Shown here: positions 8,461-39,288 of the stretch, piece after piece
How positions within the stretch are numbered: the first letter of the stretch is position 1
How the letters are laid out: every line of letters begins with the position of its first letter
Source: an uncultured Pseudothermotoga sp.
GTDB taxonomy: Bacteria; Thermotogota; Thermotogae; Thermotogales; DSM-5069
Reading direction: 5' to 3'
Length of the DNA: 41,336 nucleotides
Assembly (NCBI GenBank): GCA_937995655.1
Contig: CALKJI010000003.1
Location: 1 to 41,336, forward strand
The notes under the pieces: generated by a model
Databases searched by the model: none
Told to the model about the DNA's origin: nothing
The model's input: the letters and a program-made list of their open reading frames with translations, nothing else
Program-made: the position numbers and the translations under genes

Positions 8461-8549
8461 CTATCAGGGCATTCTGTGAAAGATACAAACGAGAGCGAGG
8501 GTTTCATCAACTGGGCTCTTTATTTTCCTATCAGGGCATTCTGTGAAAG
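8461..8549. repeat. 22-bp direct repeat pair, 67-base period
   Basis: CTATCAGGGCATTCTGTGAAAG occurs exactly at 8461-8482 and 8528-8549. The similarity extends eight bases further with three mismatches, giving about 27 of 30 identities. A 30-base unit with a 37-base spacer is the geometry of Thermotoga CRISPR arrays, and the Cas operon starts 0.5 kb away. Only two copies exist, and one lies inside a protein-like minus-strand frame where it encodes PFTECPDR, so a coding-sequence duplication is the more likely origin. Confidence 0.7.
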
Positions 8550-8727
8550 GTGCAAAGACTTTATACTTCAAGTGAAAGCCGTTGGAATCCAATTTCATCA
8601 CTGTTGATTTCATCGCAAATTGTGGATTCTTGACTGGAAACACAGGGTTTTTGTTAAAGTCCTCGTAGTTGGCATATCCTTCGCAATACTTTATTGGAAT
8701 ATTATGTAACTTTGTTGGTGATCTGTG
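8464..8727 (-). pseudogene. Decayed protein-coding fragment, family not recognised
   Basis: The minus strand is open for 87 codons between a TAG just after an eight-T run and a TGA at 8464. It has no start codon until residue 39 and no ribosome binding site. The amino acid pattern looks like real protein, for example IPIKYCEGYANYEDF, FPVKNPQFAMK and KVFAPFTECPDRK. Just past its end, another frame reads SFTECPDRYWQS, a second copy of the TECPDR segment, coming from the direct repeat. The fragment is therefore a truncated, frame-shifted remnant. It could be a mobile-element protein left at the edge of the defence island, but I do not recognise the family. Confidence 0.35.
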
Positions 8728-9033
8728 CTAAAAAAAACCCAACCAATAGGGGAAATGGCAAAAGACACTGCAAAGTCTTTTGCATGTCGCTCGAATATTT
8801 CATTATTTCAATCGAGTCTATAAAATTTCTTTAGCCCCGAGTCCGATTGTAAGCCAATCATTATTTTTTGAGCCTTCTAAAGCATTAACATACTCAACAA
8901 TCAGGCATAATCAAGATCAGTTCTTTTTGCAACAAATGGTAAATTTATACCACTTAAAAGGTTAGAATTATAACGTGATAATTTTGAAACTACAGTGTAA
9001 TCTAATAATCGGTGGGAACAAAGGGGGTAAGTA

Positions 9034-9939
9034 TTGGTGAAAAAGGGTAAAAAAGACCAAAGGAAAAGTGAAGTGCAAAAACGGCAGACAGAGGTACTTT
9101 TGGCAACTTTGGGCACAGAACCACAAGTAGTTACTATCACTCTTGATGAACTTGCAAAAAGAGGCTACTCAGTCAACAAAGTTGTTTTGGTATTCACCAA
9201 AAGTCCTGCGACAATCGAGGCTGTAGAAATGCTCAAAGAGGAGTTTTCCAAACAGCAAAGTCAAATCGAGGTTGTTGAGTGCCCTGTTGAATCAAATGGA
9301 AAGGCTGTGGAAGACTTTCTCACACAAGAAACCTTAAAAGCTTTAATGGTTACCCTGTACTCACAGATTCGAGAGCTGAGAGAAAAGAATTTCATAATCC
9401 ACCTACTAATCTCTGGTGGTCGCAAAATAATGGGAATAATGGCTATGTTGATTGCTCAACTTCTCTTTGGAGAAGAAGACCACATATGGTACTTGATAAC
9501 GGAAGGCTGGAAACCCGGTGATAATCGAAAACTTCATCTTTCTGAACAAGAACGCGCCTGGGTTGTTGAAATTCCTGTGATACATTGGTCTGAAGCCTCA
9601 ACTTTAATTCGCACAGTAGCTCAGATCAGTACACCTGAGGATGTGGCAATGTGGTACAGGAAATTGAATAAAAATGCACAATTAAGGAGAAAAAAGGAAT
9701 TTGTGGAACGTTGGCTAACGCCAGCGGAGAAGGAGTTGGTTAAAGTGGTCTGCCAAGGGTATGACAACGAACATATATCTAAAATCCTGTGCAAGAGAGA
9801 GCAAACTATCGCTAATCAACTGCAAAACATATACGAAAAGCTCAGACAATGGATGGATTATCCAGACAGGCGGGTGGATAGAAACCTTTTGATTGCCGAA
9901 TTTGCACCTTATTTTTCCCTGAATGAAGAAAAGACTTGA
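9034..9939 (+). CDS. CARF protein of the Cas_NE0113 type fused to a LuxR-type HTH
   Basis: Residues about 20-200 match the CRISPR-associated NE0113 family: VLLATLGTEPQVVTITLDEL at the ligand-binding strand-loop, and HLLISGGRKIMGIMAMLIAQ at about residue 127, the second conserved CARF loop. Members are predicted ring nucleases or sensors of cyclic oligoadenylate. Residues about 225-290 are a separate domain: LTPAEKELVKVVCQGYDNEH, then ISKILCKREQTIANQLQNIY, which follows the GerE/LuxR HTH pattern (LTxxExxVLxLxxxGxxNxxIAxxL, then the recognition helix). There is no HEPN or other nuclease motif. It is the first gene of the cmr operon. The start is TTG at 9034 or GTG at 9037, both behind AAGGGGG. 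Inference: a cyclic-nucleotide-responsive regulator that may also degrade the signal. Confidence 0.82.
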   Translation: MVKKGKKDQRKSEVQKRQTEVLLATLGTEPQVVTITLDELAKRGYSVNKVVLVFTKSPATIEAVEMLKEEFSKQQSQIEVVECPVESNGKAVEDFLTQETLKALMVTLYSQIRELREKNFIIHLLISGGRKIMGIMAMLIAQLLFGEEDHIWYLITEGWKPGDNRKLHLSEQERAWVVEIPVIHWSEASTLIRTVAQISTPEDVAMWYRKLNKNAQLRRKKEFVERWLTPAEKELVKVVCQGYDNEHISKILCKREQTIANQLQNIYEKLRQWMDYPDRRVDRNLLIAEFAPYFSLNEEKT

Positions 9940-9953
9940 TCGGAGGTGAAAAA

Positions 9954-10334
9954 ATGATCGTCCTAAACTTTTCCCACTATTTAACGGATAAAATTATAAA
10001 ACAATTGGAAGAAAAGTTGGGTAACACCATTCAAAAGATAATAGATTTGGACGCAAAGATTGACATGGAAAGACCTTTGGCACCACAAATATCAACGATC
10101 GCTGACAGAGTTGGTTTCAGTTCCTACGAATGGCAAAGCCTTCGGTTCATTGTAAATCCACCTTCGTTGAACGTGAGCGCCGTGACTCTCTTAGCAGAGC
10201 TTCACGGAAGATGTGGCTTTTTCCCGCCCATCATAAGGCTCAAACCGTTGCAGGACAGTGCAACAGTGAAATTTGAAATGGCGGAGATCATCAACCTGCA
10301 AAAGGTTAGAAACGAAGCCAGGTTGAAAAGATAA
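9954..10334 (+). CDS. csx15: CRISPR-associated protein Csx15
   Basis: A small protein of about 126 residues. MIVLNFSHYLTDKIIKQLEE at the N-terminus, then EWQSLRFIVNPPSLNVSA, LLAELHGRCGFFPPIIRLKP, and FEMAEIINLQKVRNEAR at the C-terminus fit my memory of the Csx15 family of type III loci. The family is thought to be CARF-related and to bind cyclic oligoadenylate, acting as a signal damper or sponge; I treat that role as provisional. The ATG at 9954 follows GGAGGTG by five bases and is preferred over an in-frame TTG at 9936. It lies 14 bases after the CARF-HTH gene and 25 before the CARF-HEPN gene, so all three signalling genes form one unit. Confidence 0.8.
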   Translation: MIVLNFSHYLTDKIIKQLEEKLGNTIQKIIDLDAKIDMERPLAPQISTIADRVGFSSYEWQSLRFIVNPPSLNVSAVTLLAELHGRCGFFPPIIRLKPLQDSATVKFEMAEIINLQKVRNEARLKR

Positions 10335-10359: not shown

Positions 10360-11655
10360 TTGAAAAAACTCATAAGCTTCTTGGGAAAAGGAGAATACAA
10401 TACAGTTACATATTTCTACCAGGAACAAGAGGTCACAACGAATCTGTTTGTAGAAGCCGCTGTGAAAATCTTCAAACCAGATATGTTGATACTTTTATTG
10501 ACAGAGTCGTCATTGGAGACAGGTCAACGATCGGAGGGTCAAGATAATTCACCTGAGCTAGAGCACGTTGAAAAACTGAAAAAAGAGTTGAGGGACATCG
10601 TTGATATTGAATATGGCAAAATTCCCGAAGGTAAATCAAAAAAAGAAATCTGGGAGATCTTTGAAATTTGCTCCCGTTATGTGGAAAGGGATGACAAATT
10701 ACTCATCGATATAACTCACGGCTTTCGTTCCCTTCCATTGATAGTTTTTGTGTCGATGGTCTATCTTCAGAGGTTCAAACATGCAGAGATTGAGGCTATT
10801 TTGTACGGAGCTTACGAAGCAAAAAATGATGGCAGAGCGCCCATATTTGACCTTAGGGAACTGCTCGATCTCTTTGAATGGATGGTAGGTGTGGAGTTTT
10901 TAAAGAAATCGGGCGATGCCGATTTGGTTGCACAAGCTTTACGTAGAACCCAAGACAGAGTTTGGAAAGAACAAAGCAATAGTGAACAAAAGCCGAAAAA
11001 ATTGCAGAACTTGGGTAGCAGGCTCAAAGATCTATCAGACAAATTCAAATCTGTGAACCCTTTAGAAGTGATGAAGCAAGCTAAGGAAGTACTAAAACAG
11101 ATTGAGGAAGTTCATGACGAAGTTAAAAATTGGGCAAAGCCTTTCGGCGCCATCTTGGATGATCTAAAGGAAGAAATTCAGCAAATTGCGTACGACAATG
11201 ATATCTCATATCTAACAGAAGAAAACTTGAAAAAACAGTTGGCAGTCATTGAATACTACAAGGCAAAGGGAAGATTTCACGAGGCAATTCTATGCTTAAG
11301 AGAATGGATCGTTGACTACGTGGCACTGGGCTGTTCAAAAGATAAATGGCTTGAAAGAGAGTACAGATCGATGATCGAGGGAAGAATTAACGAACGTGTA
11401 AAAGAGACTTTAAGCAAAGAAAGAGGCATAGCCAACGAATGCCAGTCTGTGAGCTTAACCGAAGAGCAACGCCAGATATCTCAGTACCTTGACAAGATCA
11501 AAGAGAACAAAAAGGACCTGACCAGTATATGGAATAACATTAAAGGCATTCGTAACAGCATAGCACATTGTGGCAAACCCAGAAAAACACAAAAAGATTT
11601 ACAAAAGTATGCAGAGGAAAAAATAGGGGAATTAAAGGAACTCTTGGAGCAATAA
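10360..11655 (+). CDS. CARF-HEPN ribonuclease, TM1812/Csx2 type (TIGR02221-like)
   Basis: The N-terminal CARF domain (residues 1 to about 165) opens MKKLISFLGKGEYNTVTYFY and carries DITHGFRSLPL at about residue 112, the family hallmark. A charged, helical and probably coiled-coil linker follows (about 190-270). The C-terminal helical domain ends with RNSIAH near residue 398, an R-X4-H HEPN ribonuclease motif. Proteins of this type (Csx1 in a broad sense) are activated by cyclic oligoadenylate made by Cas10 and cut RNA without sequence specificity, causing dormancy or abortive defence. The start is TTG at 10360 behind AAAGGGGG. It is followed 26 bases later by cmr1. This is the only recognisable toxic effector in the island and must serve one or both Cas10 proteins. 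Confidence 0.9.
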   Translation: MKKLISFLGKGEYNTVTYFYQEQEVTTNLFVEAAVKIFKPDMLILLLTESSLETGQRSEGQDNSPELEHVEKLKKELRDIVDIEYGKIPEGKSKKEIWEIFEICSRYVERDDKLLIDITHGFRSLPLIVFVSMVYLQRFKHAEIEAILYGAYEAKNDGRAPIFDLRELLDLFEWMVGVEFLKKSGDADLVAQALRRTQDRVWKEQSNSEQKPKKLQNLGSRLKDLSDKFKSVNPLEVMKQAKEVLKQIEEVHDEVKNWAKPFGAILDDLKEEIQQIAYDNDISYLTEENLKKQLAVIEYYKAKGRFHEAILCLREWIVDYVALGCSKDKWLEREYRSMIEGRINERVKETLSKERGIANECQSVSLTEEQRQISQYLDKIKENKKDLTSIWNNIKGIRNSIAHCGKPRKTQKDLQKYAEEKIGELKELLEQ

Positions 11656-11681: not shown

Positions 11682-12728
11682 TTGAAAATCGAGGCGATTT
11701 ACGAAATTAGCTCTCCGCTTTTTATGAGGGGTGCAGATCCATCGGGCTCGCTTGAACTTAGACCCGCAAGTTTCAAAGGATTGCTTCGCTTCTGGTTTCG
11801 AGCTGTAGCATTTTGTAGACTCGGCTCGGTGAAAGGGGTCCTTGAAGAGGAGAACAAACTTTTTGGAAGCAAAAGTGGGCAGAGTCGGGTTTCCTTAACC
11901 ATCAATCCTATCAATGTTTCCCTTGGAAACCTAGGCAAACTTGATTTTGGCCTTAGATATTTAGGGTACGGTTTGTTAAGCAAATCACAAAAAAACCAGG
12001 CAATTAAACATGGAACACGAGTGAAACTCATACTGAATATAAAAGATCTTGTGGGTAAGGAAGAGTTGTCTTTACTGGAAAAATCGCTGTGTGCCCTTGG
12101 TACCTTTGGTGGAGCTGGTGCTCGCAGTAGACGAGGATTTGGCTCTTTAACGCTGGTGTATTTAATCATCGATGGCAAAAAATATAAATCTGGCAAAGAA
12201 TATAAATCTAAGGAAGATTTGAAAAATTTTATTTGCAAGTTCCTAAAAGCTGTGATCGGAAAGAACAATAACACCTTACCACCCTACACAGCTTTCAGTG
12301 GCAAAACTCAGGTTTTCATAGGAGAGGCGAGTGATAACCCAATCGAGCTCTTGGAAAAAATAGGACAAGAATTAAAACAATATCGAATGTCATTTAAAAA
12401 TAAAGAAATCGTTGAAAAAGTCAAAAAGAAGGTTATTTTCGGACTTTCTTCTCCCTATAAGTTAGGGGAGTCAACCGTTAAGATTGTTTCGGAATCTTCT
12501 GGCAATAGAAGGGCAAGCCCACTTTTTATTCACATACACAAAGTTCAAGATAATAAATACGTCCCAGTTTTCACAGTCTTCCCAGCACAGTTTCTCCCTC
12601 GCGGGGCATGGTTGCAGATAGATAATCAAAGGGAAAGAATCACTATCAATGAACAAGACTTTAAAGTAATTTCTGAATTTCTCAGATCCGATTCACTAAA
12701 TGCCCAGGAGGTGTGCAAGAATGAGTAA
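11682..12728 (+). CDS. cmr1: Type III-B RAMP subunit Cmr1
   Basis: Cmr1 is a double-RRM RAMP protein at the head end of the Cmr backbone, where it binds the 3' end of the crRNA-target duplex. The sequence shows the Cmr1 start IYEISSPLFMRGADPSGSLE and the signature LRPASFKGLLRFWFRA, followed by LFGSKSGQSRV. A glycine-rich loop GGAGARSRRGFGSL near residue 145 is the typical RAMP G-loop. The length of 348 residues is usual. It starts with TTG at 11682 after GGAGGTG. Its stop overlaps the start of the cas10 gene by eight bases, so the operon is translationally coupled. Confidence 0.93.
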   Translation: MKIEAIYEISSPLFMRGADPSGSLELRPASFKGLLRFWFRAVAFCRLGSVKGVLEEENKLFGSKSGQSRVSLTINPINVSLGNLGKLDFGLRYLGYGLLSKSQKNQAIKHGTRVKLILNIKDLVGKEELSLLEKSLCALGTFGGAGARSRRGFGSLTLVYLIIDGKKYKSGKEYKSKEDLKNFICKFLKAVIGKNNNTLPPYTAFSGKTQVFIGEASDNPIELLEKIGQELKQYRMSFKNKEIVEKVKKKVIFGLSSPYKLGESTVKIVSESSGNRRASPLFIHIHKVQDNKYVPVFTVFPAQFLPRGAWLQIDNQRERITINEQDFKVISEFLRSDSLNAQEVCKNE

Positions 12729-14661
12729 TGTAATCTTACATTTTTCCATAGGACCTGTTAAGGATTTTGTTGCTCAAGCAAGGCGAACTCGTGATTTCTG
12801 GGCGGGGTCGTTCTTGCTTTCCTATCTATCGGCGTTGGCAATGCTGGAAATTTTAGAGAATGGTGGGGAGATTGTCTATCCCATCGTTGCAACGAATGGC
12901 AAAATTTTAGACCCACTATTGAAGGCTATAAAAGATGTCAAAGAAACCAAGACAACCCAAGAAAATCCAAGCATAGCTACATTACCTAATCGCTTTATGG
13001 CACGTGTACCTATGGACTTCGATGCCAAAAGATGTGTAGAGGCTGTTAAAAACGGGTGGAACAAGATAGCTCAAAGCCTTTGGCAAAGGTATGTCATGCC
13101 TGTAGCCTCGAAAGGTAAAGGGACGGACGTAATTTGGAAGCGCCAGGTCGAGAGTTTTTGGGAGATCAATTGGGCTATGGGAGGTGAAGGACAAACCAAT
13201 CTTTTGGAACTTAGAAAGAACTGGCGCACTCACTTATTACCCGACGAGCCAGGGGATAAGTGCACACTCATGGGGCTGTTTCAGGAAATCTCAGGATACA
13301 CTCGCACAAGGGAGAGAAACAAACAAGAGGAATTCTGGAAGGCTTTAAGAGAAAGGGTGGGTGAATACCAGCTGGATGAAAAAGAAAGACTTTCAGCAAT
13401 AGGTCTGATAAAAAGGCTGTTCCCCCTTGTAGCTAAAGATGCTATAGGTTGGGATCCTAAACAAAGAAACTACCCATCGACACCTTATCTGGCGGCACTA
13501 CCCTGGATTGTTGAAGTCATCACAGATCATAAACAAGCAGCTTTAGAATATGCTCAACTCTTTTCTAATCTTCCTGAAGTCAACAATACAGAAAATTACG
13601 AAATCTTTCCAGAACTAAAAGAGATTGCAACCCAAAACCCTGATCTATCTAAATTTCTTTCACTCAGTGGAAATTGCTTTCATAAAAGTGCTTTGGAAAA
13701 TCCCAACCTGTGGAACATTCAAGACGTTGAAAGGCAAAAAGAATTCAAAAAAAAGACAAAAGAGGCTTTGGAAAACATAGAACGTAAAGTAGGTCAAAAA
13801 CCATCGCCCTTTTATGCACTTTTGTTGTTCGATGGAGACAATATGGGAAAACTCTTGAGAGAATGCAACCCCCAAGAGGTTAGTTTAGCACTTAAAAATT
13901 TTTCAGCCAAGGTTGACAACGTCGTGAGCAAGTATAGAGGTGTTTTAGTCTATGCCGGTGGGGATGACGTTCTAGCGCTCAGTAGCTTAGAGAACGCTTT
14001 GGATTTAGCCATTGACATTCGCAAAACCTACACCCACTCATTTGAAGAAGTCTTTAAACAAAACTTTGCAGATGTGAGTAAAAGTGGTGGTGGAACAATC
14101 TCTGGGGCGATCGTCTATGCCCACTACAATCTACCGTTCACAGCGATCGTAAGACAAGCTCACCACCTTCTCGACGATGTGGCAAAGGATAAAACTGGAA
14201 GGGACAGCCTGGCGATAACCGTTTGGAAGGGTTCGGGACAAACTCTCGTCTGGTCGGCTCCTTGGGACTTTCTGATTACAGAAAACGGAAACATCTTTAA
14301 GGAACTGATGGGAATGTTAAACCCCAAAGGTGATGACAGGCAGTTCAGCTTTTCTTTCTTTTACAATTTGAAAACTTTAGTTGAGTCTCTGTTTTCAGGC
14401 GACAAAGAGAAACGCCCAAAACTGAGCCATGAGGATCTTTTGGACCTTTTGGCTGCCGAGTATAGAAAAAGCAAGAGGTTCGAGGTGGATTGGACGACGG
14501 CGAAGAAAAATGTGGAAAACATTGTCAAGATCTGTAGAAAGGTAAAAAGAGAAAGTTCTTCAAAAAAGGGAGGTTACCTTACCAAAGTCGATGAAGATTC
14601 TTTCGTTACCGATGGGCTCATGTTGATCAAATTTCTAACTCAAAGGGGACTGGGAGCATGA
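12721..14661 (+). CDS. cmr2: Type III-B Cas10/Cmr2, cyclase-competent, no HD domain
   Basis: The large subunit of the Cmr complex. It opens ILHFSIGPVKDFVAQARRTR, the segment that in longer Cmr2 proteins comes after the N-terminal HD domain. At about 646 residues it lacks that domain and has no HD dyad near the N-terminus, so ssDNA cleavage is not expected. The palm domain keeps LLLFDGDNMGKLL (about residue 375) and AGGDDVLAL with GGDD at about 413-416, so it should make cyclic oligoadenylate on target RNA binding. The ATG at 12721 follows AGGAGGTG; an in-frame upstream start at 12700 lies inside cmr1 and is less likely. Upstream CARF genes fit the signalling role. Confidence 0.95.
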   Translation: MSNVILHFSIGPVKDFVAQARRTRDFWAGSFLLSYLSALAMLEILENGGEIVYPIVATNGKILDPLLKAIKDVKETKTTQENPSIATLPNRFMARVPMDFDAKRCVEAVKNGWNKIAQSLWQRYVMPVASKGKGTDVIWKRQVESFWEINWAMGGEGQTNLLELRKNWRTHLLPDEPGDKCTLMGLFQEISGYTRTRERNKQEEFWKALRERVGEYQLDEKERLSAIGLIKRLFPLVAKDAIGWDPKQRNYPSTPYLAALPWIVEVITDHKQAALEYAQLFSNLPEVNNTENYEIFPELKEIATQNPDLSKFLSLSGNCFHKSALENPNLWNIQDVERQKEFKKKTKEALENIERKVGQKPSPFYALLLFDGDNMGKLLRECNPQEVSLALKNFSAKVDNVVSKYRGVLVYAGGDDVLALSSLENALDLAIDIRKTYTHSFEEVFKQNFADVSKSGGGTISGAIVYAHYNLPFTAIVRQAHHLLDDVAKDKTGRDSLAITVWKGSGQTLVWSAPWDFLITENGNIFKELMGMLNPKGDDRQFSFSFFYNLKTLVESLFSGDKEKRPKLSHEDLLDLLAAEYRKSKRFEVDWTTAKKNVENIVKICRKVKRESSSKKGGYLTKVDEDSFVTDGLMLIKFLTQRGLGA

Positions 14662-15770
14662 GTTGGTCAAAATGGGTTTTTCAAGCAGTTGATTCCTTTT
14701 TCTTTCGAGGCCCTGTTTCCTTCCATGCGACAGAAGGGGGATACACGGTTGTAAGAAGTATCTTTCCACCCTTTGTAACCACCCTTCAAGGGGCTATTAG
14801 ATATGCCTTGGCGACCGCCATGGGATGGGTCCCTGATAGAGAAAAGACTCTACCTCGTGAACTGGGTGATGAAAACAACTTGGGAGCGCTCAGCTTTAGA
14901 GGACCCTACGTGGAGTACAAAAATTCGGTCTATTTCCCCGTTCCTTCTTTGCTTCTAAAGGCTGGTGAAAATTACGTAAGGCTAAAGCCTGGCCCGAAGG
15001 TAAAGACCGACTTGGGTGAAGTACATCTTCCAGTTGTCCCAGAGCAGTACATAGGAGCTTTGAAAGAATTGAGAGACAGTTACATCTCCTATGACAATCT
15101 TGCAATGATTCTTCAAGGTTTTCTACCAAAAGATCAAGATCTTCTTACTCCAAAGGATCTCTACTCAATCGAAGAGCGTGTGGGCATAGGGAGGTCTCCC
15201 AAAAAACACACGGCCATGGAAGGCTACCTATACTACATAGACCATGTAAGGCTCTATCCTTGGGTGGCACTGACGGTCTACGTTTCTGGGATACCAGACC
15301 AGGTAGACCTATCAAAGATCAAGACCGTTCCACTTGGCGGCGAGGGAAGGCTTGCTACGGTTGTAATCAATGAGTGCGATGTAGTTAGAATAATTCCTCC
15401 TTTCCCCACATTGGATTGTGACAAAGATGGAAAACTCAGATTTTTTGTGATGCTTTTAACACCCGGATGGTTTGAAGATCCATGGAAAGTTATCTTAAAG
15501 GGCCCCTCAGAACTCGCAGCTGAGAAAGATGTACAGGTCGTATCTGCTTGTATTGGAAAGAGCATGTACATGGGAGGTTGGGACTTAAAGAATGGAGAAC
15601 CAAGGGCCTCGCACCCAATAATTCCACCAGGAAGCCTGTGGTTCTACGAGGCTAAAGAAAGTAAAGAGCTAAAAACAAAGTTGGAAAAGTTGCATGGTGA
15701 ATGTCTCGATATCAAAAAGGAGTTTGGTTTTAGCCAAATTTTGATAGGAAGATGGGAGGGTCTCGAATGA
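14658..15770 (+). CDS. cmr3: Type III-B RAMP subunit Cmr3
   Basis: Cmr3 binds the 5' repeat-derived tag of the crRNA and contacts Cmr2, like Csm4 in type III-A. Family features are the N-terminal QAVDSFFFRGPVSFHATEGG, followed by the SIFPPFVTTLQGAIRYAL helix, a central LSFRGPYV segment, and the C-terminal GKSMYMGGWDLKNGEPRASH region with PPGSLWFYEA. The length of 370 residues is normal. The ATG overlaps the stop of cmr2 by four bases (ATGA). Confidence 0.93.
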   Translation: MSWSKWVFQAVDSFFFRGPVSFHATEGGYTVVRSIFPPFVTTLQGAIRYALATAMGWVPDREKTLPRELGDENNLGALSFRGPYVEYKNSVYFPVPSLLLKAGENYVRLKPGPKVKTDLGEVHLPVVPEQYIGALKELRDSYISYDNLAMILQGFLPKDQDLLTPKDLYSIEERVGIGRSPKKHTAMEGYLYYIDHVRLYPWVALTVYVSGIPDQVDLSKIKTVPLGGEGRLATVVINECDVVRIIPPFPTLDCDKDGKLRFFVMLLTPGWFEDPWKVILKGPSELAAEKDVQVVSACIGKSMYMGGWDLKNGEPRASHPIIPPGSLWFYEAKESKELKTKLEKLHGECLDIKKEFGFSQILIGRWEGLE

Positions 15771-16624
15771 ACGGTACCGTTCTGTCGCTCTTTGCAGAAA
15801 CAAGTTTACACCCTGGCATTGGTCAAATAGTGGGAGCCGTAGACTTGCCTGTGGCTCGTGAAAGGGCAACAGGTTATCCCGTCATCTTTGGCTCAAGTCT
15901 AAAGGGTGCTTTGAGAGAAAAGTGTGAAAAAAAATTGATCAAAGAACAAAATGAAGGTAAAGACGGAGCTATAGCTCGGATTTTCGGCCAAGCCGAACAA
16001 GCGGGCTCGTTGTTGATATCAGATGCTCGCATCCTTTTGCTACCTGTCAGGTCTATTCCAGGTCCCTTCAGATGGATCACCTGCCCTCACATATTAGAAC
16101 GTTTGAAGAGGGATTTAGCGCTTGTAGGTATTACAAAGGACTTTCAAATTCCCAATGTCCAAGATCGAGCTTTCGTGCATAATTCATCAAAAGATTCACA
16201 AGTTTTCTTGGAAGAGATTGTGACAGATGTACAAAAGGACGATTCTATTGAGAAAATAGTCGAAGTCTTGGAAAATTTTATTCCTCATGATTTCGTTAAA
16301 AAACGTTTCAAAAAACAGTTCATGATCATTGACGATGAGGAATTTCAATACTTTGCTCAATATGGACTTCAAGTTAACGCACGAAATGTTTTGGACGAGA
16401 AAAAAATCAGTCTAAACCTGTGGTACGAAGAGCTCATCCCACACGATACATTGTTCTATTCTTTGATTTTTGAAAGAAAACTTTCTGAAAATCAAAACGA
16501 TATAGAGGTTCTAAAACGTATTTTTACAGAAGACAAATACCTTCAGATCGGTGGCAACGAGACTATAGGCCAAGGATGGTGCACAGTAACCTTTGTTAAC
16601 CTCGGTGGAGGTGAAAAGAAATGA
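15767..16624 (+). CDS. cmr4: Type III-B backbone RAMP and target-RNA nuclease Cmr4
   Basis: Cmr4 forms the repeated helical backbone and cuts target RNA at six-base intervals. The N-terminus LFAETSLHPGIGQIVGAVDL places an Asp at residue 26, matching the catalytic Asp of characterised Cmr4 proteins, followed by RERATGYPVIFGSSLKGALR, the family signature. The C-terminus has LQIGGNETIGQGWC, the glycine-rich RAMP loop. I chose the ATG at 15767, which overlaps the cmr3 stop in ATGA and follows GGGAGGG; this gives 285 residues and D26. An in-frame GTG-type start 15 bases upstream is less likely. Confidence 0.95.
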   Translation: MNGTVLSLFAETSLHPGIGQIVGAVDLPVARERATGYPVIFGSSLKGALREKCEKKLIKEQNEGKDGAIARIFGQAEQAGSLLISDARILLLPVRSIPGPFRWITCPHILERLKRDLALVGITKDFQIPNVQDRAFVHNSSKDSQVFLEEIVTDVQKDDSIEKIVEVLENFIPHDFVKKRFKKQFMIIDDEEFQYFAQYGLQVNARNVLDEKKISLNLWYEELIPHDTLFYSLIFERKLSENQNDIEVLKRIFTEDKYLQIGGNETIGQGWCTVTFVNLGGGEKK

Positions 16625-17034
16625 AAAAATCCATCAACCAGCAAAGGGCTAAAAACGCTTTCGAGCAAGTGAAGAAGCTGCAGGAAAATAATAATGACTC
16701 AGCCACTAGATCCAATTATGTGTCTTACGTAGAAAACCTACCCACAATGATTTTGATAAATGGACTGGGCCAAGCAATGGCAACACTTCTGGCACAAGTC
16801 GAAAATGATGAAACAGATCCTCACTATTTGCTTTACGACCATGTGCAAAAATGGCTTTGTAGGGATGACCAAAGTGCACCATTTCGTGGTAAAAAGGACC
16901 TCATGGAAGCTATAGTTAGTTCTAGTAGGGAGGAATATATCAAAGCTCAGGCAGAGGCTCTTGCCTATTTAGAATGGCTCAAGAAATTCGCCGTTGCCTT
17001 TTTGAAACCCCGCGACGGCAAAGGGGAGGAGTGA
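16621..17034 (+). CDS. cmr5: Type III-B small subunit Cmr5
   Basis: Cmr5 is the small all-helical subunit that runs along the Cmr4 filament. At 137 residues it has the expected size, and it carries the family pattern SINQQRAKNAFEQVKKLQ at the N-terminus, YVSYVENLPTMILINGLGQA in the middle, and a C-terminal helix rich in Lys and Glu with AQAEALAYLEWLKKFAVAFL. The ATG overlaps the end of cmr4 by four bases, and its stop lies two bases before the cmr6 ATG. Confidence 0.92.
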   Translation: MKKSINQQRAKNAFEQVKKLQENNNDSATRSNYVSYVENLPTMILINGLGQAMATLLAQVENDETDPHYLLYDHVQKWLCRDDQSAPFRGKKDLMEAIVSSSREEYIKAQAEALAYLEWLKKFAVAFLKPRDGKGEE

Positions 17035-17036
17035 TC

Positions 17037-17843
17037 ATGCTCCCCATGTATAAAATAATTGCACATGAAAATATTCTTTCGCGTTCAGGCAAAAACTTTA
17101 ATGCGGGACTTATCTTTGCAAAGTTTTTCGACCGTTGGGATGATAGTAAAAGGTGGTCTTTTCAGAAAAATTCGAAGCAAGAATGGTTAAAGAAATTCAT
17201 TAGCGCTTACAAAGCTATGGACAATGATTTAATTTCCCAGCAACTGGAGGAGTATTCCTATCGTCTAAAGAGACTTGTCAATGCTTTAGGCGGAACAGTA
17301 ATGTTGTACAAAACGAAGTGGAGGTTTGTTGCTGGCTTAGGATTGAAAAATCCAACGGAGATTGGATTTTCTTGGCATCATACTTTGGGGGTACCGTACC
17401 TGCCTGGCAGTTCTTTCAAAGGTCTAGTCCGTTCATGGGTGGAAAACTTCCAAAAACGTGACCCTGAAGAAATCAAAAGAATCTTTGGATCTATGGACAA
17501 ACAAAAGTCTGATATGGTGGGGAGCGTTATCTTTTTCGACGTGCTACCTTCTCGAAAGGTTGAACTGGAACTGGACGTGATGACACCTCACTACAGTCCC
17601 TACTATATGCAAAAAGATGATCGTTCGGAAGATCCAGGCGACTGGTTTGACCCGGTGCCTATTCATTTCCTGACGGTCGCTCACGATCAACCCTTTGTCT
17701 TTTGCGTGGCACCACGAACGAAAGAGCACGTGCAAGACATGGAAAAGGTGAAAGGATGGATACACGAAGCACTCACTCAGAAGGGCGCAGGTGCAAAAAC
17801 AAACGTTGGGTATGGGAGGTTTGAGCAGATTACTGAAGCATAA
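17037..17843 (+). CDS. cmr6: Type III-B RAMP subunit Cmr6
   Basis: Cmr6 is the terminal RAMP subunit, capping the backbone with Cmr1. The signature HTLGVPYLPGSSFKGLVRSW is at about residue 115, followed by GSVIFFDVLPSRKVELELDV and TPHYSPYY, all typical. A C-terminal GAGAKTNVGYGRF glycine-rich loop completes the fold. The ATG at 17037 follows GGGGAGGA by six bases, giving 268 residues; the frame is open to 16974 inside cmr5, but that part is not family-like. It is the last gene of the plus-strand operon. Confidence 0.94.
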   Translation: MLPMYKIIAHENILSRSGKNFNAGLIFAKFFDRWDDSKRWSFQKNSKQEWLKKFISAYKAMDNDLISQQLEEYSYRLKRLVNALGGTVMLYKTKWRFVAGLGLKNPTEIGFSWHHTLGVPYLPGSSFKGLVRSWVENFQKRDPEEIKRIFGSMDKQKSDMVGSVIFFDVLPSRKVELELDVMTPHYSPYYMQKDDRSEDPGDWFDPVPIHFLTVAHDQPFVFCVAPRTKEHVQDMEKVKGWIHEALTQKGAGAKTNVGYGRFEQITEA

Positions 17844-18113: not shown

Positions 18114-18770
18114 TCAAAACTTAGATTTAGACAACATACCAAAGCCCTCTTCGTTTTTGTCACCTATTCCCAAGCAGTTTGCCAAGTAGATGATCTCTTC
18201 TGATCCATACAGTTTGAACTTCAATCTTTGGGAGGTCCTTTTCTCTGTGCCTTCCTTTTGTTTTTGCTCAAAAGGTACAATGAAAAAAGAATTGTTCTTT
18301 GGAAAGCTTCCAAAGATTTCTACATATTTTTTCACAAGCTTATTTCTTATGAGAGAGCTGTACAAAACAGGGTTCTCATTCCAAGCCACATCCTTTTTGT
18401 TTTCATCCATGACAATCACTGGGGACGAGGGATGACATTCATCAAAGTAATCCACTATGGTAACATCAAGACGTATGTTCCTTGCCGTTCCGTAGGTGAA
18501 TTTTAGACCACGTGATGCCAGACGGCTTAACACTTTATAGAACTGCACAGAATACAACGTTGAAAAGGCAAATTTTGCTTCGCCAATTGCATAGAAACCT
18601 TCCTTCATCGCTTTGATTTTCTTTCCAAAGATATCGGAAAAGGTAAAGTACTTTAAACCAAACTCTTTAAGACTGTCGCTGATGAAAAGCTTGTAATCTC
18701 TATCAAAGTAGAATGGTTCAGTAAAGATCATCTTTAAGTTAACCCGTACACCCTTGAACTCTAATTTCAT
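18114..18770 (-). CDS. Cas6-like RAMP protein
   Basis: A 218-residue protein at the end of the csm operon, overlapping csm5 by four bases. The N-terminal half has YFTFSDIFG (about residue 40), like the FtFS segment of Cas6. The C-terminus has GIGDKNEEGFGML, the glycine-rich RNA-binding loop that closes Cas6 proteins. Cas6 processes CRISPR precursor RNA into crRNA that can load both Csm and Cmr complexes. However, the N-terminal 110 residues have no histidine where canonical Cas6 enzymes carry the catalytic His; the only His is in DECHPSSP near residue 113. It may be a non-canonical or inactive Cas6, or another RAMP. It is the only crRNA-processing candidate in the window. Confidence 0.72.
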   Translation of the reverse strand: MKLEFKGVRVNLKMIFTEPFYFDRDYKLFISDSLKEFGLKYFTFSDIFGKKIKAMKEGFYAIGEAKFAFSTLYSVQFYKVLSRLASRGLKFTYGTARNIRLDVTIVDYFDECHPSSPVIVMDENKKDVAWNENPVLYSSLIRNKLVKKYVEIFGSFPKNNSFFIVPFEQKQKEGTEKRTSQRLKFKLYGSEEIIYLANCLGIGDKNEEGFGMLSKSKF

Positions 18771-19915
18771 TGTTCACCTAAAGTAAACTTAACCCAACCC
18801 AATGGTTCTGCTGGCCTGTTATTTCTAATGACTAACTTCCTTGTTTTTGGAAAGATATAGTCATTGATCATTCTAACTTTTCCAAGGCTTTTCAGTCTTT
18901 GGATGAATGCTTTATCTATATTTGTTATAACACTCTTAGATTTGTAACCGGTAGAAAAGCCTAACTGTATCAGAAATTGCCTATCTGACAGTTTCATTCT
19001 TTGGAGATTTTGGTAGAAATTTATCGGTCCATTCAGTATGCCTTTTTCGTTGTACTTTTTGTAAAATTCTATCTCAGAATTTATGTACATCGATGTTTGA
19101 CCACGTATTTTTGATATGAATTCTAATATCATATCCAAGTTTTTGAACTCTGCAAATTCTTGTGTCGTGAAGTATTCTATAAACCCCATGCCCAGTGTAC
19201 CTTTAATTTTTGTCCCCTTTTTTATAGTTTCTACTACGATATATAAAGAGTGCTGAAGCCTGTCTTCGTTTCTCCTTCCTTTCCATTTTAGTTTACCATT
19301 GCATATGTTCAGGATCCTTACTTCAGATGCTTCCAAGTTTGAAAACGGAATGAGTTCACTGTCGGAAATCATCAGAAATCGGAAGGGGGAATAATTTGGT
19401 GTGCCAAAAAGGTTTTTTTCCGCCTTTTCATCACATTCAGCCTTTTTGTGCGACCTTTGATTATCTTTATTACTTCGCCGCTTGATGAAATCTTCTAAGC
19501 TCTCTAAGTAGTATTTTTCTTTATTTAATGATCTTGTAATGGCAGTTCTAATAGCACCCTTTATGGAACTCCCCGGAATATAGGGTCTGCCAGCCGTTTT
19601 TACTATTTCGTATATTTCTTTTTTGTATATTTCTGATGGATCTACTGAAGATGTGTACTCAAGTTTGTACTTGATGTATTTTTTGTAATCAATTTCCAAC
19701 CTCTTAAGTTCTTCAACAATATTGGTGTCAAGATGACCTTTCTCCAGGTAACTCAAAGCCCTTTCATTTTCTCTGGCCATCTTCATGATATCCAGAATAT
19801 ACAAATCTTTTCCTTCTAAAACAAATTCAAAGGAAGAAATTCTACTCGGTTGTGTTACGGTAGTGGGCGATAGAACCTCTATCTCATAATCCATAGTAAT
19901 GTATTTATTTTCCAT
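18767..19915 (-). CDS. csm5: Type III-A RAMP subunit Csm5
   Basis: Csm5 caps the 3' end of the crRNA in the Csm complex and helps recruit trimming nucleases. The N-terminal YEIEVLSPTTVTQPSRISSF fits the family, and RPYIPGSSIKGAIRTAITRS (about residue 130) is the RAMP signature shared with Csm3. About 382 residues is normal for Csm5. The frame is open to a GTG at 19924, but the GAGGGG Shine-Dalgarno touches that codon; the ATG at 19915 has it eight bases away and is preferred. It follows csm4 closely and overlaps the Cas6-like gene. Confidence 0.9.
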   Translation of the reverse strand: MENKYITMDYEIEVLSPTTVTQPSRISSFEFVLEGKDLYILDIMKMARENERALSYLEKGHLDTNIVEELKRLEIDYKKYIKYKLEYTSSVDPSEIYKKEIYEIVKTAGRPYIPGSSIKGAIRTAITRSLNKEKYYLESLEDFIKRRSNKDNQRSHKKAECDEKAEKNLFGTPNYSPFRFLMISDSELIPFSNLEASEVRILNICNGKLKWKGRRNEDRLQHSLYIVVETIKKGTKIKGTLGMGFIEYFTTQEFAEFKNLDMILEFISKIRGQTSMYINSEIEFYKKYNEKGILNGPINFYQNLQRMKLSDRQFLIQLGFSTGYKSKSVITNIDKAFIQRLKSLGKVRMINDYIFPKTRKLVIRNNRPAEPLGWVKFTLGEQ

Positions 19916-19927
19916 CTTTTCCACCCC

Positions 19928-20833
19928 TCAAGCATAGGGAACTAAGAATGCCCTACCATACTTAAAGGTTTTGTGTACCTCAAAACCTTTAGGTGTGTCA
20001 TCGAAGATATCGCCTTGGACTACCCCTTGAACCACACTTCCCTCTTCAAACATCCTGTAAACCTTATGCTTTTTTGTCCTTTCGTAGGGCGAGAAAATAT
20101 AACCAGTTCTTTCAACGATTTGGTATCCCACGAACTTTTTCCATTCGTCGTCTTTTGGCAAAAATAGAGACAATAAGAGATTTACTTCCTTCAAGTTTTC
20201 TATATCTTCTTCCCAAGATTCAAGTTCAAAGCTCCCGTATCCATAGGTTCTCATTCCACCTAAACCTTCATCACCCAAGAGCCTAAGGGCTGCAAAAACG
20301 TCATCAACTATCTCTTCGTCTACGTCCATATAGAACCACAGACCGCTGTTCTCGCTAAATCTGCAGCAAGCAGTGTAATATATGTTCGATTCGCTGGTCC
20401 ATCGATCCACTGTAACCCTTGGCCTTTCCTCGATTTTGTATATGAATCCTCGGACTTCTTTGCTCAAAAGAGCATTTTGCAAGATGTACCCTTGATCACT
20501 TTCCTTTTTCAAGATCTTTTCACTCACATACTTAATCCTTTTGTTTTTTTTGTAGTCCATGTAGCAATTGTTAACCAAGGGCTTTGGGAAAAGAAATTCG
20601 TCTCCAATGTAATAGAAAGCCGATGAGACAAAAAACTTGCCTTCAAAAACCTTGGTGAGAAACTCTTGGGTTTTCTCTTTTCCAAATAAAAGGGCGTAGC
20701 AATTTGTAATGCCAGAGAATAGCGTATCTGAATGCACGATTGTTTCGGTGATGTTGTAGATACCTTCCTTGTACCCCAAGTGAATAGGTGTCTTAAACTT
20801 GAGTTTGATTCTATGCCTCTTCATTGTTCTCAT
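19928..20833 (-). CDS. csm4: Type III-A RAMP subunit Csm4
   Basis: Csm4 binds the 5' crRNA tag and anchors Cas10. The sequence IKLKFKTPIHLGYKEG followed by VHSDTLFSGITNCYALLFG is the Csm4 N-terminal pattern, FLFPKPLVNN follows, and the glycine-rich GDEGLGGMRTYGYGSFEL lies near residue 192. The length of 301 residues is normal. The ATG at 20833 lies one base after the csm3 stop. An ATG at 20824, giving MKRHRIKLKF and spaced nine bases from AGG, is an equally good start. Confidence 0.92.
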   Translation of the reverse strand: MRTMKRHRIKLKFKTPIHLGYKEGIYNITETIVHSDTLFSGITNCYALLFGKEKTQEFLTKVFEGKFFVSSAFYYIGDEFLFPKPLVNNCYMDYKKNKRIKYVSEKILKKESDQGYILQNALLSKEVRGFIYKIEERPRVTVDRWTSESNIYYTACCRFSENSGLWFYMDVDEEIVDDVFAALRLLGDEGLGGMRTYGYGSFELESWEEDIENLKEVNLLLSLFLPKDDEWKKFVGYQIVERTGYIFSPYERTKKHKVYRMFEEGSVVQGVVQGDIFDDTPKGFEVHKTFKYGRAFLVPYA

Positions 20834-20834
20834 C

Positions 20835-21665
20835 CTACTCGATTTTGAGCTGATCCAATTCTATTTTACAAAGAGATTCTGCATTTATTTTTTTCTTTTC
20901 GTCAGTGCCTTTGCCAGAGTAATAATCTTTATCTCTATACTCTATCTCTATTCCTTCAAACTTGACTCGACCGTATCCCCTACTGCCTTGCCCTCCTAGA
21001 TAATCGTCTTCCAACAATTTCATAGCCTCAATAAGAGTCTCAAGATACTTCTTCTTATCATCGTTAAATACATTCACTACAAAATTGCATTCAAAAGCGG
21101 CATTGGCTGGTACCCTCTCCGTTTGCCTTGGATTTGCTGCCGATGTAATTCTATCAAGAGAGTTTTCAAATTTCACTTCCGTGTATTCTAGATCCATGTT
21201 ATCTTTCATTTCTTCAGTGATGCTCTCGTCGATCAAGTGAGCATCTCGTACGATCAACCTGGTTGGTACGATACTCTCATCGAACGATTTACCAACACTT
21301 TCTTTTTGGTCATTTTTTTCAATAACTTCGTGGTTCCCATGATTTCGCCCAAAGAGTCCACAAACAAGGCAGTTTTCTTCACCGCACATATGCATCCTTA
21401 TCGAGCCGTCATCATTACTTTGCTTCGTGTACACAACAGAACCTGGTTTTAACAAGCCAAAGTAAAATTCCGCAAGGCACCTAAGTTTGCCCTTTAAGCT
21501 GCTACCAGGAATGTACGGCTTGCCGTAAGAATCCTTTATAACTGGGTTATCAACGCCACCTATGTCCAAAGTATTCCCAGAGGTACCAATGTGTAAACCT
21601 GTCAGAAGCCTTAGTTTCGCCTTTATAATGAACTTACCCTTTAATTCGATTGCCTTAAAACCCAC
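20835..21665 (-). CDS. csm3: Type III-A backbone RAMP and target-RNA nuclease Csm3
   Basis: Csm3 forms the helical backbone and cuts target RNA. The N-terminal region has LTGLHIGTSG, then IGGVDNPVIKD, where the Asp (about residue 39) aligns with the known catalytic Asp of Csm3, followed by KPYIPGSSLKGKLRCLAEF. CGEENCLVCGLFGRNHGNH near residue 100 is the family's Cys/His zinc-site region. The C-terminus has GGQGSRGYGRVKF. I chose the GTG at 21665, five bases after GGAGGAG; the ATG at 21683 overlaps the csm2 stop but would place that Shine-Dalgarno inside the gene. Confidence 0.93.
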   Translation of the reverse strand: MGFKAIELKGKFIIKAKLRLLTGLHIGTSGNTLDIGGVDNPVIKDSYGKPYIPGSSLKGKLRCLAEFYFGLLKPGSVVYTKQSNDDGSIRMHMCGEENCLVCGLFGRNHGNHEVIEKNDQKESVGKSFDESIVPTRLIVRDAHLIDESITEEMKDNMDLEYTEVKFENSLDRITSAANPRQTERVPANAAFECNFVVNVFNDDKKKYLETLIEAMKLLEDDYLGGQGSRGYGRVKFEGIEIEYRDKDYYSGKGTDEKKKINAESLCKIELDQLKIE

Positions 21666-21679
21666 AGAGACTCCTCCTT

Positions 21680-22105
21680 TCATGAATTTTTATTCCTTTT
21701 ACTTCCCTCAGCTGACTTGTGATAGGCAATGACTGCCTCGAAGAAATCTTTTAACCTTTTCAGTTGTTCTTCCTTACCATCGAGTGTTACATCAATAATT
21801 TCGTTCAAGGTATTTATTAGAAACTTTAATTTTTCAAAGCGCCCTGCTGTATAGGCAATGCGTGCTTTTACTAATCTCAGTCTGTACTTGTACTTACCAT
21901 CATTATCGTAATTAATCCTCTTCAGCTCCGTATAGATTTTTCTTATCTGATGGACGGTTACCTCTTCAGATTTAAGCTTTTCCCCAAGTTGTTGTGCCTT
22001 TTGGAACAATACTTGCCCATGTGGATCTTGGTCTGGATTAATGATTTTGCGCGCTTCTTCTTTGTCTAGAACAACCTGTTCTGTTTTTCCCGCGTCATTG
22101 CTCAT
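21680..22105 (-). CDS. csm2: Type III-A small subunit Csm2
   Basis: Csm2 is the small helical subunit lining the Csm3 filament. About 141 residues, mostly charged helices, with VTVHQIRKIYTELKRI and the KYKYRLRLVKARIAYTAGR segment that is characteristic of Csm2, and a final LKDFFEAVIAYHK helix. The ATG at 22105 follows GGGAGGTG and lies two bases after the cas10 stop; the frame is open 15 bases further upstream without a better start. Confidence 0.92.
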   Translation of the reverse strand: MSNDAGKTEQVVLDKEEARKIINPDQDPHGQVLFQKAQQLGEKLKSEEVTVHQIRKIYTELKRINYDNDGKYKYRLRLVKARIAYTAGRFEKLKFLINTLNEIIDVTLDGKEEQLKRLKDFFEAVIAYHKSAEGSKRNKNS

Positions 22106-22107
22106 CT

Positions 22108-24324
22108 TTACACCTCCCACTTTCTGGTTTCCATATCAGCCCAAACTGTCGATGTTAAAATCCTGTTGTAAAGCTTATTATCATCGCTAAGTACGTTGTT
22201 CAAGAAGCTTTTTATATCTTCTTTGGCATCTGAATAACGTTCTTCAAGGCGCGAGAAATAATAAATCACACGCCAAGCTTTAAAAAGTTCTCTTTCCTTT
22301 ATACTTCTTTCGTACTGACTCACTGCAGCATATATGATTTGGAATATGTTCCTTGTAACTCCCTTTGCAGTCACTAAGTCTTTAAGTAGATTCTTGATGG
22401 AGCGAACTTTTTCAAACTCTTCCCAGCCCAGAGTACTTTGCAAAAAGAAGATGGCATCCTTCGTCTTTCCGTTCCTCTCGTAAGACTTTGCCATTTCTAA
22501 ACTTTCACCAGCGTCTTTTGCAACTCTGTACACTGGAAATTTCACATCAGGTCCAATCTCAATAGCCATGGAGATTGTCAGATCTTGGTTGTTTCCAGTG
22601 TAGTCTTGGAACTTTTTCCTGATATCGTAAGCCAAGTGTGGAAGAAGATGCCATGGACCGATTATGAAGAAATCATCTCCACCAGAGTATATAATCATGC
22701 AGTTTTTGTAATTTTCTCTGACTAAGTCTTCAAGGAATTTACCAAAAAACATCTCGATTTCCAGGGACAGCGTTGCAACTCTTGATAAAGTCTTGTTTTC
22801 TCCTAAACCTCTGAGGAATATTTCTCCAAGGTTGTCTAAGTCACCTCTCAGTATTCCCCAACGTTTTATACCCTGAGCCTCTTTTGAAATGTCATCAAGA
22901 CTCGCTATGTTTCCATCTTTGTCGTTGTACATGTAAGTCGCACTTTTTACATACCCAGCCATCGTCTTAAGATCTATTCCTGTCTTTTCAATCTTGTAGG
23001 AATCTTTAGTTGGTTGGTCAAGGAAATCTAAATCATATCCAAAGGACTTAAAGACATCTCGAACACCGTTGATCTTTCCCTCAAAGTCATCAACTCTTCT
23101 CAAAAGAAGAAACTTTTTCTTGTTGAGCATATTAGCCAGCTCAACAAAGGAGTCACAAAATGTACAACTATTTCCCGAAACCTCTTTTTTGCAATATGGG
23201 CAAATGTTCTCGTTATCTTTCGGGACGAAGAAGTCATTGTTCATTATGGATTTGAATTTTCTCAGCTTTTCCTCAGATACTCTTTGTCCAACCCTATGTA
23301 GAATCTCTGGAAAGTTGCCTTTGTCCAATTCAGCAGCACTGAATGTAACACTGGATAAAAGCACGGTCAAATCTAAACCGTGCGCTTGTAACATCACTTT
23401 TTGAATCTTTTCTCTGTAGTGATCTAAGTTTTTTTCGCTCTTTGATGGGGCTAATATGTAAAAATGTCCACCACCACAGTACAGGATATTACTAAGAGTG
23501 AGGCCTTCTTTGTCGACTATGTATCTTGCGACAATTTCGGCAAGGTAACTTACGTAGAAAGACCGAGCCTTGAGATTTTTGACAGCGTTATCCATATCTA
23601 TGTTGTAGATGAAGTTCTGTATACCTGACACATCACCTTTTATCAAGCAAAAGATTTGTTCGGTCTGTGCGTGGCTCTTGGAAGATACATCTTTATAAAG
23701 TTTTGTGATTTTATCATGATTTCCCGACAAAATCTCATCCTTGAACTGAAGATATAGACAGACAGCGATGGCAGCCGTACTCTTAAGGTGTGAAAACAAC
23801 GATATGTCAGGTTTCGAGTAATAATAAGCCGAAGGAACGTTCGATGTGTACTCCCTTAGTATGTAGTAGATGCGGTCGGTGTTAGTCTCATCTTTTATGA
23901 TTTCAAAAAATTCGTCCCAAAGCTCTTTGTAACCTGAAGAAACCTTCTCTTGCGGTGCTTCAAGTAGCTCGTTATAATCAGATAATTTTGAAATCTTCTT
24001 ATACTTTGCTACTTTATCGGTGCCATTTAAACTTACCAAACTTAGTATAGAAATCAAGTTTTTGCTTTCTTTTTCAGACTCATCACGCTCTTCTCTTTCA
24101 CCTGCCGATAGCTTGTCTGCTAAGGCTATTATCTCTTCATAGACATCGGTCGGTTCGTGATGTTTTTCTACAAGCTTTCTTATGAGATCTCTGTTAGGAA
24201 GCTTTAACCTGCTGCAAAATTCCCCGCTGAGAATTTGGTGCTTCATCTTTTCCGTGACTGTTCGTTGAGCAAATTTGCCTATGTCGTGGAGCAAAGCTGC
24301 AGCATAAAGGTCCTCGACATTCAC
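22108..24324 (-). CDS. csm1: Type III-A Cas10/Csm1 with HD and GGDD domains
   Basis: The large subunit of the Csm complex, 738 residues. The N-terminal HD domain starts LYAAALLHDIGKFAQRT (His and Asp at 13-14), with a further KHHEPTDVY segment, so ssDNA cleavage is expected. A four-Cys zinc site lies at about 380-395 (CPYCKKEVSGNSCTFC). The second palm domain has YSGGDDFFIIG with GGDD at about 548-551, so it should make cyclic oligoadenylate. A helical C-terminal domain follows. The start is GTG at 24324 behind GGGGGTGAT. It is first in the csm operon. No csm6 accompanies it, so its signal could only act on the CARF proteins of the neighbouring Cmr operon or on proteins elsewhere. Confidence 0.96.
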   Translation of the reverse strand: MNVEDLYAAALLHDIGKFAQRTVTEKMKHQILSGEFCSRLKLPNRDLIRKLVEKHHEPTDVYEEIIALADKLSAGEREERDESEKESKNLISILSLVSLNGTDKVAKYKKISKLSDYNELLEAPQEKVSSGYKELWDEFFEIIKDETNTDRIYYILREYTSNVPSAYYYSKPDISLFSHLKSTAAIAVCLYLQFKDEILSGNHDKITKLYKDVSSKSHAQTEQIFCLIKGDVSGIQNFIYNIDMDNAVKNLKARSFYVSYLAEIVARYIVDKEGLTLSNILYCGGGHFYILAPSKSEKNLDHYREKIQKVMLQAHGLDLTVLLSSVTFSAAELDKGNFPEILHRVGQRVSEEKLRKFKSIMNNDFFVPKDNENICPYCKKEVSGNSCTFCDSFVELANMLNKKKFLLLRRVDDFEGKINGVRDVFKSFGYDLDFLDQPTKDSYKIEKTGIDLKTMAGYVKSATYMYNDKDGNIASLDDISKEAQGIKRWGILRGDLDNLGEIFLRGLGENKTLSRVATLSLEIEMFFGKFLEDLVRENYKNCMIIYSGGDDFFIIGPWHLLPHLAYDIRKKFQDYTGNNQDLTISMAIEIGPDVKFPVYRVAKDAGESLEMAKSYERNGKTKDAIFFLQSTLGWEEFEKVRSIKNLLKDLVTAKGVTRNIFQIIYAAVSQYERSIKERELFKAWRVIYYFSRLEERYSDAKEDIKSFLNNVLSDDNKLYNRILTSTVWADMETRKWEV

Positions 24325-33540: not shown

Positions 33541-33566
33541 AAAAGCGGGACTCATGCCCCGCTTTT
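33541..33566. terminator. Bidirectional intrinsic terminator
   Basis: AAAAGCGGG (33541-33549) and CCCGCTTTT (33558-33566) form a nine-bp stem with an eight-base loop. The stem is A-rich on one side and T-rich on the other, so it can work in both directions. It sits between the convergent GH3 gene and ROK gene, and the ROK stop codon overlaps its right arm. Confidence 0.85.
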
Positions 33567-39051: not shown

Positions 39052-39187
39052 TAGTTGGAAGTCTTTGCTTTCATCTTATTAGCTTCTTGTCTTTGGACCT
39101 TGGAATCTTTGATTCGTTAGATTACAAGATTTCATAAACAACTCTTGACCTTTGTGATATGATAATAATGTAAAAAGTGAATATGGA

Positions 39188-39277
39188 AGATAGGGGAGCT
39201 CCTAATCTGGGGCTGAGAGGAAGGTAGAACCTTCGACCCTTAGAACCTGATCCGGGTAATGCCGGCGTAGGGAATCT
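39188..39277 (+). ncRNA. TPP riboswitch (THI element)
   Basis: The conserved core is clear: GGGGAGCTCC at 39193-39202, GGCTGAGAGG at 39211-39220, ACCCTTAGAACCTGATCC at 39236-39253, and GGGTAATGCCGGCGTAGGGA across 39254-39273. A P3a insert GAAGGT-AGA-ACCTTC (39220-39234) is present, as in many THI elements. AGA (39188-39190) can pair with TCT (39275-39277) as P1. It precedes a terminator and a thiamine-type gene set, so thiamine pyrophosphate should switch expression off. The promoter is not clear: TTGACC at 39145-39150 has AT-rich -10 candidates only at irregular spacing. Confidence 0.97.
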
Positions 39278-39288
39278 GAAGATAGACG

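Follow-up and report, generated by a model that had tools for sequence, protein, structure and literature searches.

A Csx14-family CARF protein with a LuxR/GerE-type DNA-binding domain is a candidate cyclic oligoadenylate-sensing regulator of a type III-B CRISPR operon

The first gene of a type III-B CRISPR operon in an uncultured Pseudothermotoga sp. encodes a CARF domain joined to a LuxR/GerE-type helix-turn-helix (HTH). We refer to this gene and its product as csx14-HTH, and to the whole stretch of DNA that was analysed (41,336 nucleotides) as the window. Our results suggest that csx14-HTH is a dimeric regulator that senses cyclic oligoadenylate (cOA) and controls its own operon through a perfect dyad located upstream of the gene, and that it is a sensor of the signal rather than its eraser. 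We place the probability of this reading at roughly two in three. It draws on a domain architecture that is conserved across the family, on the loss of the motif-I hydroxyl residue, on the conserved position as first gene and on the dyad, which is conserved in a sister species.

Domain architecture and genomic setting

The CARF domain was recognized by Pfam Cas_NE0113 (PF09623; E=1.9e-48, 165.5 bits against a cut-off of 23, residues 29-212) and by NCBIfam TIGR03642 Csx14 (116.6 bits, cut-off 90.35). The PADLOC profile PDLC01851 'CARF3--CARF' matched the protein over its full length (residues 19-298, E=3.4e-113). Linkage to class 1 CRISPR loci, as expected of the Csx14/NE0113 family, was also found, and csx14-HTH is a member of the Csx14/PDLC01851 family. 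Foldseek matches of the CARF model included Sis0455, Sso2081, Cad1 and Csa3, and both Csa3 profiles remained under their cut-offs (TIGR01884, 19.7 vs 60.2; Csa3_N, 20.7 vs 27).

Taken singly, the C-terminal domain of csx14-HTH is a marginal match to Pfam GerE (E=6.3e-5, residues 228-271), its 23.0 bits lying 0.5 bits under the cut-off of 23.5. In a genome-wide search it scored 25.5 bits and was the sole GerE match of the whole 2.1-Mb genome. Judged by profile comparison, the GerE/LuxR assignment is firm at the level of the family: GerE was matched by 27 of 38 homologues (best E-value 2.9e-12), and the C-terminal family profile matched the solved structures of GerE (2.9e-9), NarL (2.3e-8) and sigma-H (5e-7). 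Sigma-70 region 4 scored as well but came under GerE/NarL for the family, and this assignment was rejected. The AF2 model of the HTH fragment (pLDDT 90) presented helices at 26-35, 41-48, 52-70 and 79-96 in fragment numbering, which is a four-helix NarL-like fold and not a winged HTH. LuxR/NarL-type proteins filled the top Foldseek matches of this model, and the NarL-DNA complex 1je8 was matched with a target TM of 0.84 and an E-value of 0.07, such E-values being weak for a short domain. The fusion of an NE0113-type CARF to a LuxR-type HTH in a promoter-proximal gene, which an earlier note had proposed from the sequence, is borne out by these searches.

Table 1. Features of the window discussed in the text
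Feature	Position	Strand	Basis or remark
Candidate operator, perfect dyad TGGTA-AATTTA-TACCA (TGGTAAATTTATACCA)	8937..8952	+	82 bp 5' of TTG start
Promoter-like TTAAAA-17-GATAAT directly after the dyad	8954..8982	+	number found not above chance
csx14-HTH: NE0113/Csx14 CARF and LuxR/GerE-type HTH	9034..9939	+	301 aa; profile matches, homologue set
CARF domain, about residues 20-185	9091..9588	+	Pfam/NCBIfam; AF2 mean pLDDT 90; Foldseek
CARF motif I GTEP, residues 27-30; E29 at the place of Sso2081 S11	9112..9123	+	alignment with Sso2081
D94, equivalent to Sso2081 D75 (adenine contact)	9313..9315	+	alignment; PMC10018336
CARF motif II GGRK, residues 128-131, equivalent to Sso2081 G103-G104-R105-K106 (cA4 binding)	9415..9426	+	alignment; PMC10018336
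LuxR/GerE-type HTH, residues 222-275 (Pfam core 228-271)	9697..9858	+	Pfam, family profile, AF2, Foldseek
csx15, cA4-binding sponge/ring nuclease family	9954..10334	+	NF040560 E=1.4e-42
TM1812-type CARF-HEPN (Csx1-like), DITHG and HEPN RNSIAH	10360..11655	+	TIGR02221, PADLOC CARF2-HEPN, motifs
cmr1, cas10/cmr2 (GGDD at residue 420), cmr3, cmr4, cmr5, cmr6	11682..17843	+	profile matches, motifs
Facing csm operon: csm1 (HD and GGDD), csm2-csm5, cas6	18114..24324	-	profile matches, motifs

The open reading frame starts with TTG, with an alternative GTG start at 9037, and is preceded by the Shine-Dalgarno-like AAAGGGGGT. Pfam and NCBIfam matches place it as gene 1 of csx14-csx15-csx1-cmr1-6; the next longer open reading frame on its 5' side (7002-7985) lies about 1 kb away on the opposite strand. 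GGDD is present in both Cas10 proteins of the window and RxxxxH is kept in the CARF-HEPN protein, so that the signal and one effector are expected to be functional.

Several further elements were observed. Upstream of the operon, two near-identical 29-nt copies (8461-8489 and 8528-8556; 22 nt identical, 67 nt apart) are possibly a two-repeat CRISPR remnant or a small duplication, and no further copy was found in the genome at up to 3 mismatches. A TPP riboswitch is located at 39182-39290 (Rfam RF00059, 79 bits). The palindrome around TAACCATGGTTA (25302-25337), located 5' of a solute-binding-protein operon, is possibly the operator of the ROK regulator whose gene (33565-34722) lies near that operon. 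The genome contains a second CARF gene (L002, G000:C4 near 304298), which is of the CARF-RelE type by PADLOC.

A scan of the genome collection with the single protein found nothing. An alignment-based scan of 84,980 species genomes with the pattern GTEPQVVT, which is biased to Glu at motif I, yielded 62 loci, mostly from Chloroflexota and also from Bipolaricaulota, Rhodothermota, Latescibacterota, Bacillota and others. Within the phylum of the window, three of the 103 genomes searched were carriers, and the viral contigs searched contained no relatives of csx14-HTH. In the CARF tree, the 69 LuxR-fused members form one side of a single branch (support 94/84). Of the 48 LuxR-fused loci whose downstream flank spans 1.5 kb or more, 27 or more have a csm1, cmr1 or cas10 gene that begins no further than 1.6 kb downstream in the same orientation, the count being a lower bound from single-query tblastn. 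On plasmid pRMAR01 of Rhodothermus marinus, csx14-HTH is likewise followed by csm1-csm5. In the sister species (G006, L184/L186), csx14-HTH heads a type I-B operon (CARF-RelE, cas6, cas7/Cst2, cas5, cas3, cas4, cas1) that sits between two CRISPR arrays, and two type III cas10 genes lie within about 30 kb of the locus. The sister locus also carries a 444-aa open reading frame (L186:13137-14471) with an N-terminal Cmr1 and a C-terminal MntA-like nucleotidyltransferase match. A second LuxR-fused clade was found in Chloroflexota (L119-L146), with GGQPQ at motif I and GGRR, not GGRK, at motif II; it also adjoins type III loci where checked and may sense another cOA.

Motif I and signal degradation

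In the Crn1 ring nuclease Sso2081, Ser11 is required for full cleavage and D75, R105 and K106 touch cA4 (PMC10018336). The motif I sequence GTS has been proposed as a mark of degrading CARFs (PMC10018336), and the missing GxS/T has been put forward as one explanation for the lack of cleavage by Csa3 (PMC8844856). Alignment of csx14-HTH with Sso2081 pairs G27/T28/E29 with G9/T10/S11, D94 with D75 and G129/R130/K131 with G104/R105/K106. Motif I thus reads GTE in place of the GxS/T of Crn1, and the motif-II R/K and the Asp for cA4 binding are present as R130, K131 and D94.

This pattern extends to the family. Across 102 aligned CARFs, Ser or Thr was found at motif I in 1/69 LuxR-fused members vs 32/33 unfused ones; the other fused members carry Glu (36), Gln (24), Arg (4), Lys (3) or Asn (1). 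The ligand residues are retained in the same 69 proteins: D94 in 67, R130 in 68 and K131, as Lys or Arg, in all. We redid the sampling by profile on 350 Chloroflexota and 398 Pseudomonadota genomes to counter the bias of the GTEPQVVT pattern, and found motif-I Ser or Thr in none of the 23 readable fused loci and in 24 of the 25 readable unfused loci. A single change in the tree suffices for the fusion. The loss of motif I and the fusion therefore represent one coupled event rather than many independent ones, and we set aside as evidence the Fisher p-value for their association. The sole LuxR-fused member with a motif-I Ser (L048, GLSPQ) has a degenerate HTH and a cmr operon on the other strand, and may have reverted to being a ring nuclease.

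With Glu standing in for the Crn1 motif-I hydroxyl and the ligand-contact residues kept, csx14-HTH is better read as a sensor than as an eraser. These residues suggest that members of the fused lineage are most likely no longer ring nucleases, and they speak against the possibility, raised in the earlier note, that the same protein degrades cOA. The product of the next gene, Csx15, is a better candidate for signal removal. Members of its family sequester or slowly cleave cA4 (PMC13148439). The window's Csx15 has two histidines, H8 and H84, which by position and spacing probably correspond to the His pair of CliCsx15. They lie 76 apart; the pair in CliCsx15 (H13/H90) lies 77 apart and that in PfCsx15 (H11/H82), which does not cleave, 71 apart (PMC13148439), so that the window's protein may be a sponge or an enzyme.

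Two alternatives would retain an enzymatic role. It is conceivable, but unlikely, that csx14-HTH acts mainly as a ring nuclease that switches the signal off in the manner of Crn1, and that its HTH serves as an appendage with a structural or inhibitory role, as has been proposed for the wHTH of Sis0811. In Hoikkala 2025, Csx14 falls within the Crn1 group of ring nucleases (PMC12409355), the CARF fold is nearest to Sis0455/Sso2081, and Sis0811/Sso1393 provide a precedent of CARF-wHTH proteins that degrade cA4. A Rhodothermus homologue is also annotated as a 'CRISPR-associated ring nuclease', but it carries GEQPQ at motif I. The near-universal absence of motif-I Ser or Thr from the fused members (68/69) and the neighbouring Csx15 both count against this possibility. 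Alternatively, csx14-HTH might regulate and also slowly degrade cOA, as a self-limiting sensor that uses residues other than the motif-I Ser. Sis0455 is active without Ser11, the Ser thus being dispensable in at least one Crn1 (PMC10018336), so that weak ring nuclease activity of csx14-HTH is possible; the motif-II Lys is also kept. However, the loss of Ser or Thr is family-wide, and Csa3, which likewise lacks GxS/T, is inactive, which makes a combined role improbable.

Candidate operator and proposed mechanism

The sister species presents the same dyad (TGGTAAAAATTTACCA) 61 bp 5' of its csx14-HTH copy, where it is the longest dyad. TGGTAN6TACCA is the only 5-bp-arm dyad common to both 250-bp upstream regions; in dinucleotide shuffles, any common 5-bp-arm dyad occurred with P=0.008, and one whose arms each hold two or more G/C in 0 of 2000. 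Perfect matches number one in the window, four in the 2.1-Mb genome and three in the sister genome. Among 16 perfect sites with fetched context from six genomes, just the two upstream of csx14-HTH fall outside open reading frames. The operons behind the two dyads differ (III-B vs I-B), which indicates that the dyad goes with the regulator gene, as autoregulation predicts. The support for the operator comes from these two genomes: other family members shared no common dyad upstream, and a generic palindrome search 5' of 40 family members showed no enrichment relative to shuffles. Matches with 2 mismatches in the CRISPR leaders of the sister species were rejected as operators, being the leader's own -10-like region GATATAAT.

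The earlier note had considered both the protein's own operon and the facing csm operon as targets. The candidate dyad favours the former; before csm (24325-25396), no operator-like site was found at up to 2 mismatches. It could also be that csx14-HTH targets distant or global genes, such as other CRISPR loci or stress genes, and that the common dyad is a coincidence. Csa3a controls adaptation and repair genes, and an operator backed by two genomes only leaves some room for this view. Yet the first-gene position is kept across many phyla and the dyad lies 5' of the gene in both closest relatives despite their III-B and I-B operons, and we consider such distant targets very improbable.

Autoregulation by a cOA sensor could proceed as follows. 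Upon target recognition, the local Cas10 proteins would make cOA, either cyclic tetra-adenylate or another species. The CARF domains of a csx14-HTH dimer would bind it across the dimer and reposition the two HTHs, altering DNA binding. The paired LuxR/NarL-type HTHs at the dyad would then change state, and with them the transcription of csx14-csx15-csx1-cmr1-6; removal of the signal would be left to Csx15. The dyad adjoins a weak -35 element, a position compatible with either an activator or a repressor. A transcriptional readout of cOA, as the earlier note had suggested, is the best reading that we can infer.

Comparison with known systems

Type III signalling has been studied almost wholly as the activation of toxic effectors, and among CARF transcription factors that respond to cOA, the archaeal Csa3 is the main one known. 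The CARF families were reportedly defined by Makarova and colleagues in 2020. The CARF-LuxR family is widespread and already catalogued (Csx14; PADLOC CARF3). The earlier note left open whether the fusion had been described: the full-length PDLC01851 match and NCBIfam Csx14 show that it is catalogued, but our literature search found no paper describing a CARF-LuxR fusion or testing a Csx14 protein. The Csx14, PDLC01851 and NE0113 entries hold the CARF part only, or a ring nuclease label, and the LuxR-type HTH, the loss of motif I and the operator are absent from them. Our reading contradicts this usual label and agrees with Makarova 2014, in which NE0113 and Csa3 proteins were predicted to be transcription regulators (PMC4012209). 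The family would provide a bacterial, widespread and testable case of cOA-to-transcription signalling with a 16-bp candidate operator. It further suggests that some CARFs carry the ring nuclease label despite lacking the catalytic signature; if so, per-locus counts of ring nucleases need revising.

Regulators of the NarL/GerE/VpsT type have their C-terminal DNA-binding domain in common with csx14-HTH; their sensor is a receiver or other domain, whereas that of csx14-HTH is a CARF. One of these regulators, VpsT, is under the control of the cyclic nucleotide c-di-GMP. Sso2081/Sis0455 (Crn1) is the nearest solved CARF by profile (E=1.6e-12) and by fold, but it has Ser11 where csx14-HTH has Glu and a helical lid instead of the HTH. 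Sso1393/Sis0811 (Crn1 with a wHTH) likewise combines a CARF of related fold (7pq3) with a DNA-binding-type domain; unlike csx14-HTH as we read it, it degrades cA4, and its extra domain is a wHTH. Csa3 (Csa3a/Csa3b of Sulfolobales) is alike in joining a CARF to a C-terminal HTH. It is a cA4 sensor without ring nuclease activity that ties the transcription of cas genes to type III signalling (PMC8844856, PMC8699464), and its specific DNA binding in vitro is independent of cA4 (PMC8844856). The design of csx14-HTH is nevertheless distinct, as the earlier note had anticipated: Csa3 is archaeal and I-A-associated and has a winged HTH and a CARF of another family, whereas the csx14-HTH family is bacterial, stands mostly at the head of type III operons and carries a LuxR/NarL HTH of four helices. 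By its profile scores and the type of its HTH, csx14-HTH is not a Csa3, although it would work like one.
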